Source of the DNA: Methylocystis echinoides
GTDB lineage: Bacteria; Pseudomonadota; Alphaproteobacteria; Rhizobiales; Beijerinckiaceae
Length of the DNA: 64,000 nt
Reading direction: 5' to 3'
Assembly: GCF_027923385.1 (NCBI RefSeq)
Contig: NZ_BSEC01000001.1
Span: 694,501-758,500 of the forward strand
Shown: piece by piece, positions 35,339-42,292 of the stretch
Layout: every line of letters begins with the position of its first letter
Position numbering within the stretch: the first letter of the stretch is position 1
Translations under genes and position numbers: made by a program
Notes under the pieces: generated by a model
Database searches by the model: none
The model's input: the letters and a program-made list of their open reading frames with translations, nothing else
Told to the model about the DNA's origin: nothing

Positions 35339-38212
35339 GTGCGCCTTCACTCGCTTCTGATCGCCCTTTTCGCCCTCCTGGTTTCGACGACCGCGGCCCT
35401 TTCCGTGGAATCGGTGCGCGTGCCGCAGGGCGCCCACGCCATCGACCTCACCCATGTCGTCGAGAACCACTCCTCGCAGAGCGACAGGCTGCAGGTTTCC
35501 ACCGCGCCGGGTTCGGATGGCATTGTGCGCCGCATCGAAGTCGGCGCCCGCGAGGCCGGCAGCCGCCCCAACTGGATCGTTTTCGCGCTCACCAACGACA
35601 CCGACGAGCAGATCGAGCGCCTGCTGGTCGCCCCCCACTTCCGGCTTCAGGGGTCCGGGGTCATCTGGCCGGATCTCGGCTCGACCCGCATCTCGGCCAT
35701 CACCGCCAGTCAGGGCTTCCCGCCCGAGGCCGAGGATTCCGCCGACGCCGACGTCTTCCGCCTGACGCTCGACCCCGGCACGACCGTCACCTATGTCGCG
35801 GAGCTGCGCACGCCTAACCTGCCGCAGCTCTATCTGTGGGAGCCCGACGCCTACAAGGACAAGGTGACGAGCCTGACCCTCTACAAGGGCATCGTCATCG
35901 GCATCGCCGGCCTGCTGGCGCTGTTCCTCACGATCGTCTTCGTGGTGAAGGGGGCGGTGATCTTCCCCGCCGCCGCCGCGCTGGCGTGGGCGGTGCTCGC
36001 CTATGTCTGCATCGACTTCGGATTCTGGGACAAGATCTTCGGCTCCGACGCCAACACCGACCGTATCTGGCGCGCGGGGTCCGAGACGGTGCTGTCGGCG
36101 ACGCTGGTCGTCTTCCTCTTCGCCTATCTCAATCTCAACCGCTGGCATGTGCGCGCCTGGCATGTGGCGGCGCTGTGGCTCTTCATTCTGGCGGCGCTGA
36201 TCGGGCTGGCGGCCTTTGACGCGCCGGTCGCGGCGGGCGTCGCCCGCATCTCGCTCGCCGCCATTGCGGTCATCGGCTTCGTGCTGGTGCTCTATCTCGC
36301 CTCGCATGGCTTCGAGCGGGCGATCATGCTGATCCCCACCTGGTTCCTGCTGGTCGTCTGGGTGGCGACGGCGGGCTTCGCGGTGGCCGGCTGGATGACG
36401 AATGATCTCGTCTCGCCGGCGCTGGTCGGCGGTCTCGTGCTCATCGTCATGCTGATCGGCTTTACCGTTATGCAGAACGCCTTTGCGACAGGCGGCCTGT
36501 CTCATGGCGCGATCAGCGACGTGGAGCGAAAGGCGCTGGCCATGACCGGCGCCAATGAGATCGTCTTCGACTGGGACGTGCCGGCCGACCATATTTACGT
36601 CAGCCCCGAGGCCGAGGCGGCGCTGGGTCTCGACCGCGGCGGGCTGGAGGGGCCGGCCTCCTCCTGGCTCGATCTGCTTCACCCCTTCGAGCAGGACCGC
36701 TATCGCGCCTGCCTCGACGCGCTGCTGGAGCAGCGCCGGGGGCGGCTCAATCAGGAGTTCCGGCTCCGCGCGGCCGACGGGCATTATCTCTGCTACCGGC
36801 TGCGGGCGCGGCCCGTGGTGGGGCCGGACGGCGAGGTGATCCGCGTCGTCGGCACGCTCTCCGACGTCACCGACGAGCGCAATGCGCAGGAGCGCCTGCT
36901 GCACGACGCCGTGCACGACAATCTGACGGGCCTGCCGAACCGGGAGCTGTTCTTCGACCGGCTGGAGGCGGCGCTGATCCTCGCGCGCATGGAAAAGGAC
37001 GTGCGTCCGACCGTGCTCGTCATCGACATTGACCGCTTCAAGCAGATCAACGAGCAGGTGGGCGTCGCCATGGGCGACAGCATCCTGCTCACCGTGGCGC
37101 ATCGCCTGACCCGCCTGCTGCAGCCGCAGGACACGCTGGCGCGCATCAACGGCGATGCTTTCGCGATCATTCTGGTTTCCGAGACGCATCCCGATCAGGT
37201 CGTGACCCTGGCCGATTCCGTGCGCCGTTCGCTGGCGACGCCGGTGCGCTTCACCGACCGCGAGATCGCGCTCTTCGCCTCCATCGGCATTTCGCTCTAC
37301 GACCAGCAGACGCATCCGGGCGCGAGCGACATGCTCGACGACGCCGAGATCGCCATGCGCTTCGCCAAGCGCACCGGCGGCAACCGCATCGAAGTGTTCC
37401 GCCCCTCCATGCGCGTGCAGCGCTCCGACCGGGTGACGCTCGAGGCCGACATGCGCCGGGCGCTGGAGCGCGGCGAGGTGAAGGTGTTCTTCCAGCCGAT
37501 CGTGCGGCTGGAGGATCGCACCATCGCCGGCTTCGAGTCGCTCCTGCGCTGGGATCATCCGCGCCTTGGCCGTCTGGAGCCGGCGCAATTCCTGCCCGTC
37601 GCCGAACAGACCGGCCTCGTCATCGATTTCGGCCTGCTGGCGCTGGAGCGCACGGCGCGCGAGCTCGCCGCCTGGCAGCGCGCGCTGGCGGTCGACCCGC
37701 CGATCTTCGCCTCGGTCAACGTCTCCTCGCGGCAATTGCTGCGGCACGATCTCCTGCGCGACGTGAAGAGCGTGCTGCTGCGCCATAACGTTACCAAAGG
37801 CAGCCTCAAGCTCGAAATGTCCGAGGCGCTGGTGATGGAGAATCCCGAATATGCGGCGCAGATGCTCGCCCGCGTGAAGGAGCTCGGCGCCGGTCTCGTC
37901 ATCGACAATTTTGGCGCGGGATATTCCTCGCTGGCCTATCTCCAGCGCTTCCCCTTCGACACGATCAAGATCGATCGCGCCTTCGTGAAGCAGAGCGGCA
38001 AGGGCGCGCGCCCGGTGATCCTGCGCTCGCTGATCGCGCTGGCGCAGGATCTCGGCATGGACGTCATCGCCGAAGGCGCGGAGACCGAGGCCGACGCGAT
38101 CGAGCTGTATCAGCTCGGCTGCGGCTATGCGCAGGGCTACGCCTTCGGGCGTCCGATCAGCGCGCAGGAAGCGCGGCGGCTCGTCGGCGCGGCGCCGGAG
38201 GCGGCGGCTTAG
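35339..38212 (+). CDS. membrane sensor with PAS, degenerate GGDEF and EAL domains
   Basis: A 957-aa protein. A signal/anchor (1-22) and periplasmic domain (about 23-175) precede seven or so membrane helices (about 180-385). A PAS domain (about 395-515), a GGDEF-like domain (about 525-690) and an EAL-like domain (about 700-945) follow. The cyclase signature is degenerate: INGDAF at about 603-608 in place of GGDEF. The EAL domain has ESL at 733-735, and the usual DDFG is DNFG (D856, N857). Other metal and substrate residues seem kept. It may be a cyclic-di-GMP sensor or a weak phosphodiesterase. GTG start. Confidence 0.88.
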   Translation: MRLHSLLIALFALLVSTTAALSVESVRVPQGAHAIDLTHVVENHSSQSDRLQVSTAPGSDGIVRRIEVGAREAGSRPNWIVFALTNDTDEQIERLLVAPHFRLQGSGVIWPDLGSTRISAITASQGFPPEAEDSADADVFRLTLDPGTTVTYVAELRTPNLPQLYLWEPDAYKDKVTSLTLYKGIVIGIAGLLALFLTIVFVVKGAVIFPAAAALAWAVLAYVCIDFGFWDKIFGSDANTDRIWRAGSETVLSATLVVFLFAYLNLNRWHVRAWHVAALWLFILAALIGLAAFDAPVAAGVARISLAAIAVIGFVLVLYLASHGFERAIMLIPTWFLLVVWVATAGFAVAGWMTNDLVSPALVGGLVLIVMLIGFTVMQNAFATGGLSHGAISDVERKALAMTGANEIVFDWDVPADHIYVSPEAEAALGLDRGGLEGPASSWLDLLHPFEQDRYRACLDALLEQRRGRLNQEFRLRAADGHYLCYRLRARPVVGPDGEVIRVVGTLSDVTDERNAQERLLHDAVHDNLTGLPNRELFFDRLEAALILARMEKDVRPTVLVIDIDRFKQINEQVGVAMGDSILLTVAHRLTRLLQPQDTLARINGDAFAIILVSETHPDQVVTLADSVRRSLATPVRFTDREIALFASIGISLYDQQTHPGASDMLDDAEIAMRFAKRTGGNRIEVFRPSMRVQRSDRVTLEADMRRALERGEVKVFFQPIVRLEDRTIAGFESLLRWDHPRLGRLEPAQFLPVAEQTGLVIDFGLLALERTARELAAWQRALAVDPPIFASVNVSSRQLLRHDLLRDVKSVLLRHNVTKGSLKLEMSEALVMENPEYAAQMLARVKELGAGLVIDNFGAGYSSLAYLQRFPFDTIKIDRAFVKQSGKGARPVILRSLIALAQDLGMDVIAEGAETEADAIELYQLGCGYAQGYAFGRPISAQEARRLVGAAPEAAA

Positions 38213-40592: not shown

Positions 40593-40626
40593 AAAAAAAG
40601 ACCCCGCCTGCCGAAGCAGGACGGGG
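40593..40626 (-). terminator. Rho-independent terminator for pmoC
   Basis: Read on the minus strand, a 10-bp GC-rich stem with one bulged base (CCCCG-T-CCTGC / GCAGGCGGGG) closes a UUCG tetraloop and is followed by a run of seven T residues. It lies about 160 bases past the pmoC stop and just after the convergent ligA stop. This is the strongest intrinsic terminator I see in the window. Confidence 0.92.
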
Positions 40627-40786: not shown

Positions 40787-41554
40787 TCAGCGCAGTTTGT
40801 CGACCATCTCCTGGCCGAGAAGCTTGTGAACACGCGCGAGAATCTGCAGCACCACGCCGAAGATGGCGAGCGACATCCAGCCGAAGAACACGAAGCCCCA
40901 GTGCAGCGGGCCCGCAAATCCTTCATCCATGGACCAGGACGTATGGCCCCACTCGTTGAAGCCGACGTTCGGAATGGTCATGAAGACGCCGACGACGAGC
41001 ACGAGAAAGGCCAGCGAAAAGCCCTTTGCGAAGCTCGGCAGTCGCGTCCGCGCATAGAGGAAGGCGCCCATGCCGATAATCGCGAAGAGCGGGTAGGAAA
41101 TGTAGAAGGTGACGATGTTGCTGGGCGTGAAATCCGTGTCGCGCACCGCCGTCATGTGCCAGACCGCGGTTTGTTCGGAGAAAAAGCTCAGGCCCCAGAA
41201 CAGCGCGAAGGAGAAAATGACCAGCCATTGCACGAGATTGAGCAGACGATGCAGTTCGAGCGCGGGGGTGATCTTGGCAAGGTCGCGGTCGCGCGTGCGC
41301 CACAGCCAGCCTGCCAATCCGGCCGCGCCGCCGATCGAGAAGAAAATCGCCGCCTTGAGCAGGTTGGTCCAGTAGATCTGGAATTCCGGCGAGAAGGAAT
41401 CGAGCCCGGCGCTCCAGCCGAAAAGCTGCTCGTAAAGGCGCAGCGCGGCGACGAGAAGCGTCAACGCCACAACTCCTGAGACAACCGGCCGAAGGTCGAG
41501 GATTTTCCCAGCGTCAGCGGCTGTCGTGGACGTGTCTGTCTTGGTGATGCTCAT
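40787..41554 (-). CDS. pmoC: orphan particulate methane monooxygenase subunit C with altered copper ligands
   Basis: A 255-aa integral membrane protein with the length and signatures of PmoC: YEQLFGWSAGLDSFSPEFQ, RDTDFTPS, FMTIPNVGFNEWGHTSW and PLHWGFVFFGW. PmoC, with PmoA and PmoB, forms the membrane enzyme that oxidises methane to methanol. No pmoA or pmoB is nearby, so this is a stand-alone copy. Aligned by eye to canonical PmoC, the CuD ligands (N200, H204, H218) and one CuC ligand (H133) are kept. The other two CuC ligands are T129 (usually Asp) and N146 (usually His). The start ATG at 41554 has a GGAG site ten bases upstream; it could also work as a variant subunit swapped into PmoCAB. 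Confidence 0.95.
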   Translation of the reverse strand: MSITKTDTSTTAADAGKILDLRPVVSGVVALTLLVAALRLYEQLFGWSAGLDSFSPEFQIYWTNLLKAAIFFSIGGAAGLAGWLWRTRDRDLAKITPALELHRLLNLVQWLVIFSFALFWGLSFFSEQTAVWHMTAVRDTDFTPSNIVTFYISYPLFAIIGMGAFLYARTRLPSFAKGFSLAFLVLVVGVFMTIPNVGFNEWGHTSWSMDEGFAGPLHWGFVFFGWMSLAIFGVVLQILARVHKLLGQEMVDKLR

Positions 41555-41587
41555 CTGAATGTGTCTCCAGAGAAAATTCGGTCGAGG

Positions 41588-41611
41588 CGCGCGGAGGGGC
41601 TTCCCCGCGCG
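41588..41611 (-). promoter_or_regulatory. hairpin in the pmoC upstream region
   Basis: A GC-rich hairpin of about nine base pairs (CGCGCGG arm with CCGCGCG, extended past one mismatch) lies 34-57 bases before the pmoC start codon. On the minus strand it is followed after eight bases by ATTTT. It could be a weak terminator for the upstream DUF2946-like gene or a leader structure of pmoC. Confidence 0.45.
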
Positions 41612-41789
41612 GCAGTTGTTGCGACGAATGGTTCTGGCGAAGCGGAGCCTGGTCGTGGCGACGGAAAAGCGGGAGGAGTCGCTCGTCGGGCGCTTGACGC
41701 GGCGCGTCGTCAACCTCGTTTCGCGTCACGCCCGACGCCGTGGCGTAAACCATTGGCGTCGGCGTGAGCGCAAAGTCGGGATGTGACGA

Positions 41790-42182
41790 TCAGACGGGCG
41801 GCGCGCGCGGAGATTGAGGCGCGCCCTTCGACGCCATGCGCGGCGCCGGGGCAAAAGTTTTCGCGGGCGCGGCGCTTGTCGTCGCGACGAAAGCGACGAT
41901 CGCGCCGGTGATCTGCGCATCGGGCGGCGCCGCGTCGAACGCGCCGCAATGCAGAATGCAGCACGGTCCGTGATGGTGATGCGAAGCGGGACGCGCGGGC
42001 TGCTCGGCGCCGCCGGACGTTTGCCCGGTTGCGCAGATCACGCCGCTGCCGCCCGCGACAACCGGCGCGGCTCCCGCAACGGCGAGCTGCGCGAGCATAA
42101 GGCCGGCGATGACAAACGCCAGCACGCGCGTGAACGCGCCAAGTTTCCGGACTGGATCCACCGCCGCCGCCTTTGGTTCCAT
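41790..42182 (-). CDS. DUF2946-like secreted His/Cys-rich protein
   Basis: A 130-aa protein with one N-terminal hydrophobic segment (about 18-40, signal or anchor), a conserved-looking SGVICATGQ, and a metal-binding-like cluster HHHHGPCCILHC (about residues 70-81), then an Ala/Pro-rich tail. This layout resembles the DUF2946 family, short exported proteins often found near copper-handling genes. It lies upstream of the orphan pmoC on the same strand, separated by 235 bases. A role in copper handling is inference. ATG at 42182 was chosen; a TTG six bases upstream is in frame. Confidence 0.65.
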   Translation of the reverse strand: MEPKAAAVDPVRKLGAFTRVLAFVIAGLMLAQLAVAGAAPVVAGGSGVICATGQTSGGAEQPARPASHHHHGPCCILHCGAFDAAPPDAQITGAIVAFVATTSAAPAKTFAPAPRMASKGAPQSPRAPPV

Positions 42183-42292
42183 CAGCAAGGCTAGAGAGCG
42201 TGCGGAGAGCGGTCAAGCAGCCTGCGTCCGACGCGTCATGCGGCGAAGTGTCTCACACTTTGCGCCCTGCGGCGGCGCGCTGGACTCTACCC

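Follow-up and report, generated by a model that had tools for sequence, protein, structure and literature searches.

A stand-alone pmoC gene of Methylocystis echinoides encodes a PmoC protein in which two of the three ligands of the copper site CuC are replaced and the ligands of the site CuD are kept. The gene lies in the window, i.e. the whole stretch of 64,000 nucleotides analysed here, and belongs to a PmoC class which, judged by the sequences compared, is monophyletic and conserved. The genes of this class, termed T-H-N after the CuC residues T129, H133 and N146, are constantly paired at the sequence level with an upstream DUF2946-like ORF carrying a Cys-Cys-x-x-His motif and a PRxPP arrest-type motif. 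We interpret the class as a conserved, stand-alone PmoC isoform which has lost CuC, has mostly kept CuD and is controlled by copper, and we assign a probability of roughly 0.5 to this interpretation.

Results

The stand-alone pmoC gene and its genome

The window gene (Table 1) has an intact reading frame and encodes a full-length PmoC of 255 aa, as a sequence-only reading of this DNA had proposed without giving its strand (minus). The protein scored 303.1 bits against PF04896 (Pfam AmoC), above the curated cut-off of 26.7, and fell narrowly below the cut-offs of both NCBIfam equivalogs, NF041641 (312.2 vs. 319 bits) and TIGR03078 (276.1 vs. 280.6 bits). Its top sequence match in the PDB was PmoC of Methylocystis Rockwell (4phz_K). 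Since the printed alignments with 4phz_K, 3rfr_C and the OB3b chain 3chx_C are free of gaps, the ligand numbering can be transferred directly. These alignments bear out both assignments of the sequence-only reading: CuC reads T129-H133-N146 instead of Asp-His-His (D-H-H), and the CuD set N200-H204-H218 (Asn-His-His, N-H-H) is intact. That reading had named ligands at shifted positions as a possible objection; none was displaced. The best PDB match of the AlphaFold model (mean pLDDT 77, uncertain at residues 133-140 and 199-214 near the copper sites) was PmoC of the Rockwell strain (7s4m_C, TM 0.83).

Table 1 Features of the T-H-N pmoC locus in the window
Feature	Position	Strand	Details
pmoC, T-H-N class, 255 aa	40787..41554, stop codon included	minus	ATG 41554-41552
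Codon T129	41168..41170	minus	CuC Asp in canonical PmoC
Codon H133	41156..41158	minus	CuC His retained
Codon N146	41117..41119	minus	CuC His in canonical PmoC
CuD set	40901..40957	minus	N200 40955-40957, H204 40943-40945, H218 40901-40903
Shine-Dalgarno GGAG of pmoC	41565-41568	minus	10 nt before ATG
Gap, upstream ORF to pmoC, 235 nt	41555..41789	minus	
Upstream ORF, 132 aa, DUF2946/CruR-like	41790..42188, stop codon included	minus	PF11162 28.0 bits, cut-off 23.7
C76-C77-I-L-H80 of upstream ORF	41949..41963	minus	putative copper ligands
R128-A-P-P131 of upstream ORF	41796..41807	minus	putative ribosome arrest motif
Terminator-like stem-loop and T run	40601..40622	minus	165 nt past pmoC

The M. 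echinoides genome contains seven pmoC genes: two that belong to identical pmoCAB copies, two that are arranged as pxmABC, and three orphans including the window copy. The other six all read D-H-H at CuC and N-H-H at CuD, and the window copy alone departs. The operon copies of the same genome, all D-H-H, do not share T129 and N146, which was the second objection that had been raised. The absence of pmoA and pmoB from the window was confirmed, as the four pmoA and four pmoB genes sit beside the pmoCAB and pxm copies elsewhere; a search of the genome for an unpaired pmoA or pmoB partner found none. The two other orphans (L003 and L004) are D-H-H copies, one being near-identical to the operon copies and the other lying on the 97-kb contig C7.

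A sigma-70 promoter scan of the pmoC region gave no site, and an Rfam scan returned three matches only, at chance level and each below threshold. The consensus scan for terminator-like sites found four in the region, where 2.6 were expected, which lends the stem-loop listed in Table 1 weak support. Elsewhere in the window, positions 35339-38212 of the plus strand encode a sensor-like protein of 957 aa with 7TMR, PAS, GGDEF and EAL domains.

A conserved PmoC class without CuC

Two database searches seeded with the T-H-N class itself, from which the best 120 of 449 and the best 120 of 360 matches were taken, provided 135 different proteins including that of the window; the share of the class among them is thus not a measure of its prevalence. 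Asn146 was found in 100 of the 135 homologues read, 92 being exactly T-H-N / N-H-H, and 35 were D-H-H / N-H-H. The eight variants, all with Asn146, comprised three S-H-N (CuD S-H-H), one A-H-N, two T-N-N (one with S-H-H) and two T-H-N with A-H-H or N-C-H at CuD. No case of mixing of the D-H-H state with Asn146 occurred among these 135 proteins. CuD was changed in 6/100 class members, where Asn200 is replaced by Ser or Ala, or His204 by Cys. Both sites are altered in the sub-group of P0122, P0126 and P0128 (CuC S-H-N, CuD S-H-H). The earlier proposal of a paralogue with altered CuC and preserved CuD stands as regards the loss of CuC, which is fixed clade-wide; the preservation of CuD does not extend to those six members of the class. 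The accompanying suggestion of different metal needs gained support from the same fixation throughout the clade, and the suggested regulatory or assembly role is a possibility beside that of an alternative subunit.

A tree built from 93 class rows and 62 canonical rows (155 in all) by a quick method with no bootstrap placed the T-H-N class alone on one side of a branch supported by SH-aLRT 99; long branches that meet near the stem leave the nearest canonical lineage unsettled. A highly divergent D-H-H PmoC of the same genus (L036, genome G057) sits on a long branch. When positions were compared between the 93 class rows and 52 canonical rows (a further 10, which are distant, being treated separately), 69 of the 117 near-invariant canonical positions were retained in at least 90% of the class rows. 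Together with the TM score of the model, this retention suggests that the PmoC fold is kept. Besides D129 and H146, most class rows have lost W67, E69, E73, R98, T131, E149, P190, F208 and L212, among others, and E149 is replaced by Thr in all 93. All 10 distant canonical rows likewise carry D129 and H146. The class looks to be under constraint by its coding sequences, with a median dN/dS of 0.15, calculated from 25 sequences with 285 usable pairs out of 300; the canonical copies gave 0.209 (56 sequences, 1537 usable pairs out of 1540). Both values are rough because dS often exceeded 1.

A survey of 39 genomes of the genus recovered the class from 25 (from G208 as a partial gene), among them 22 of the 30 genomes with at least 90% completeness and at most 5% contamination, so that at least 8 of these 30 seem to be without it. 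Six of the 14 genomes in which it was not found are less than 90% complete or otherwise poor, and only part of the matches from these 14 was read. Named carriers are M. rosea, M. suflitae, M. silviterrae, M. parvus and M. bryophila. Among the matches read outside the genus, 15 loci (L024-L035 and L043-L045) from the two further genera of the family that possess pMMO were all D-H-H.

Three other ideas on the origin or role of the gene were discarded. A phage origin is unsupported: of 64 viral-contig pmoC loci, the 61 in which CuC could be read were without exception D-H-H / N-H-H. As to carriage by plasmids, the best match among 10 plasmid records, compared by identity only, was less than 60% identical. 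A stand-in function for a missing soluble MMO is likewise unsupported, since its gamma chain was found in 7/39 genomes of the genus and six of these seven carry the T-H-N class.

The upstream ORF

PF11162 (DUF2946) was the best match for all 11 homologues of the upstream ORF examined and passed its cut-off in three of them. Residues invariant among the 11 include C52, C76, C77, H80 and P127-R128-x-P130-P131, the metal motif thus being CCxxH in place of the CXXC of CruR. The ORFs around 24 class loci and the window were compared in 25 rows, three of which contain the window's own gene. The upstream ORF recurred in 23, and the two misses (L059 and L105) are loci where the contig ends too near upstream. 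The outer neighbours vary, no ORF beyond the stretch of pmoC and the upstream ORF occurring in more than 14 of the 25 rows.

The pairing was tested by looking for a same-strand ORF which ends in R(A/G/P)PP and has its stop codon at most 700 nt upstream of pmoC. Such an ORF preceded 39/39 class loci and 0/88 D-H-H loci, or 24/24 and 0/75, respectively, when distinct upstream sequences were counted; these counts omit three class and eight canonical loci with less than 450 nt upstream and four fragments unreadable at CuC. In the 24 distinct class loci the motif is RAPP (21), RPPP (2) or RGPP (1), the Cys/His motif precedes it at a distance of 45-47 residues, and 148-257 nt separate the ORF from pmoC. 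The loss of CuC, treated by the sequence-only reading as a property of a single protein, is instead conserved across the genus and accompanied by this CruR-like ORF, which points to copper control. Five other CruR-like ORFs of the M. echinoides genome (L185, L186, L187, L188) all end in R(A/G)PP; they stand ahead of TonB receptors (three), ExbB-ExbD (one) and ORFs with no Pfam match (one), so that four of the five head genes of the copper-uptake type, and are likely to form a copper regulon.

Discussion

A proposed switch of the CruR type ahead of pmoC

CruR of Bordetella pertussis is a DUF2946 upstream ORF at which, according to PMC9426467, ribosomes stall at RAPP when copper is lacking and so keep the downstream genes on, whereas copper sensed by the CXXC motif relieves the stall and Rho then terminates transcription. 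Arrest by CruR in vitro was reported later (PMC12992588). RAPP and RGPP are given as strong arrest motifs in PMC9426467, and no test of RPPP was found in the accessible text of that paper; its stated positions place 45 residues between the Cys motif and RAPP, with a gap of 162 nt. By analogy with CruR, scarcity of copper would stall the ribosome at RAPP of the upstream ORF, and the downstream T-H-N pmoC would be transcribed and translated; copper binding to the nascent Cys/His motif would relieve the stall and shut pmoC off. Such a switch gives a simple prediction of when the T-H-N protein is made. We infer that expression at low copper is the likelier direction because spacing, motif and gap resemble those of CruR and because the other ORFs of this kind in the genome mostly stand ahead of TonB receptors and ExbB-ExbD. 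The sign of the control is not certain, since CutF, a relative of CruR, acts oppositely. The family cut-off passed in only 3/11 homologues and the CCxxH motif in place of CXXC count against the interpretation as a copper-controlled isoform.

The opposite sign would follow from control of the CutF type, in which copper stalls translation of the upstream ORF and thereby opens a stem-loop over the downstream start (PMC9973294), so that the isoform would be made at high copper. CutF is itself a member of the DUF2946 family, and the Shine-Dalgarno sequence of pmoC was predicted to be partly paired (probability 0.39-1.0, no control) in 22 of 23 single gap sequences, so that a step resembling that of CutF may take part. 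However, CutF-type loops are described as requiring short gaps (PMC9973294), whereas those of the class reach 148-257 nt. The consensus fold of the 23 gap sequences was very weak at -0.95 kcal/mol, against -0.02 (sd 0.12) for 30 column shuffles, a poor control as shuffling scatters the alignment gaps. With a C-terminal RAPP as in CruR, we regard control of the CutF type as unlikely.

What the T-H-N protein may do

In pMMO structures, copper is reported at one or the other of CuC and CuD, which lie about 6 Å apart, and never at both; the roles of the two sites in methane oxidation are disputed, and CuD is favoured as the active site by recent work (PMC12576850). Absence of CuC and presence of CuD, in a PmoC encoded after a putative copper switch, suggest a subunit that economises on copper. 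By analogy with the CruR system, we take the protein to be a PmoC isoform for copper scarcity, most likely an alternative pMMO subunit limited to CuD. It might replace the operon-encoded PmoC in pMMO protomers, which is the less certain step, and its partners would then be the operon-encoded PmoA and PmoB, as every pmoA and pmoB of the genome is paired. The resulting pMMO would hold no copper at CuC and could use CuD alone, being either an enzyme that spares copper or a structural placeholder.

Several observations weigh against an active enzyme. According to work cited in PMC6572826, mutation of C-subunit ligands inactivates a pMMO homologue, the hydrocarbon monooxygenase, and CuD itself is changed in 6/100 class members. 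The loss of W67, E69, E73, R98, E149 and P190, besides the ligands, and the genomes of good quality which seem to be without the gene also speak against the preferred interpretation. The full chain, in which copper starvation acts through a nascent-peptide switch to give a natural CuD-only pMMO isoform in Methylocystis, is tentative and on balance rather improbable.

As the main alternative, possible if doubtful, the T-H-N protein may have ceased to be an enzyme subunit and be a copper-handling membrane protein, made at low copper together with uptake genes. It would bind copper at a CuD-type site and either deliver it to pMMO or retain it as a store. Genes for TonB receptors and ExbBD do follow other CruR-like ORFs in this genome, the T-H-N gene stands alone, without pmoA and pmoB, and several invariant positions of canonical PmoC are lost. 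Yet the protein is still about 55% identical to real subunits and keeps 69/117 near-invariant positions, and a structure search confined to the PDB found no known chaperone with the PmoC fold.

The single-gene, divergent C subunit AmoC3 of Nitrosomonas is induced by stress. A similar role for the T-H-N protein, with general stress rather than copper as the inducer, appears quite improbable. In Methylocystis strain SC2, a chromosomal single-gene product, PmoC2Gs (UniProt J7QLZ6), was detected and increased with ammonium (log2 2.3 at 75 mM), copper being unmentioned in the accessible text of that study (PMC9600857). PmoC2Gs may be the T-H-N gene and thereby evidence for it at the protein level, to judge from the one-contig genome G190, in which two single pmoC genes, one T-H-N with the upstream ORF (L257) and one canonical (L259), accompany three pmoCAB operons, but this assignment is by elimination, not by name, and the upstream ORF speaks for copper.

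Decay of a gene copy, or an error of sequence or alignment, which the loss of two metal ligands and other conserved positions might suggest, can be dismissed in view of the conservation of T-H-N across the class, with the same residues in 92/135 homologues read, a dN/dS of 0.15 (rough, as dS is high), open frames and a gap-free alignment.

The T-H-N clade represents a natural experiment in cultured Methylocystis, e.g. M. parvus and M. rosea, in which CuC is gone and CuD is mostly kept, and such a natural PmoC makes the controversy on CuC and CuD directly testable. If a CuD-only isoform were active, CuC would be dispensable for methane oxidation.

Comparison with known systems

Singleton pmoC genes and control of the CruR type are known; the CuC-less PmoC class and its pairing with a CruR-like ORF appear to be new. 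A literature search, mostly outside subscription papers, found no title or beginning of an abstract on the T-H-N class or its upstream ORF and no CruR-like switch ahead of a PmoC gene in print; the sole co-mention with pmoC was a general copper review containing the word "cutf" once.

The pair in the window resembles CruR-bfrG as described in PMC9426467 in its DUF2946-type ORF, Cys motif, C-terminal RAPP, spacing and long gap to a copper-related gene. It differs in the downstream gene, PmoC instead of an uptake receptor, and in CCxxH instead of CXXC. CutF-CutO of Rhodobacter capsulatus (PMC9973294) shares the upstream-ORF family and is alphaproteobacterial, but it is described with a short gap and a stem-loop, whereas the T-H-N loci have a long gap and no convincing conserved stem-loop was found in them. 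Phage-encoded PmoC also stands alone; unlike the T-H-N class, it is D-H-H in the 61 readable viral-contig loci, and all three CuC residues are likewise reported for it in PMC7674155.

Canonical PmoC (PF04896; Rockwell 4phz/7s4m, OB3b 3chx) is similar to the window protein in length, fold and CuD N-H-H, with about 55-57% identity, and differs from it in D-H-H at CuC, in E149 instead of Thr and in its place in the pmoCAB operon. Singleton pmoC genes, which the sequence-only reading rightly took as known, occur in many Methylocystis strains, and their function is called open (PMC7285482, PMC10171618, PMC9600857). The accessible parts of these accounts make no split by copper ligands. Our comparison divides the singletons into at least two classes, namely canonical D-H-H copies (e.g. 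L003, L004 and L259) and T-H-N copies with the upstream ORF.
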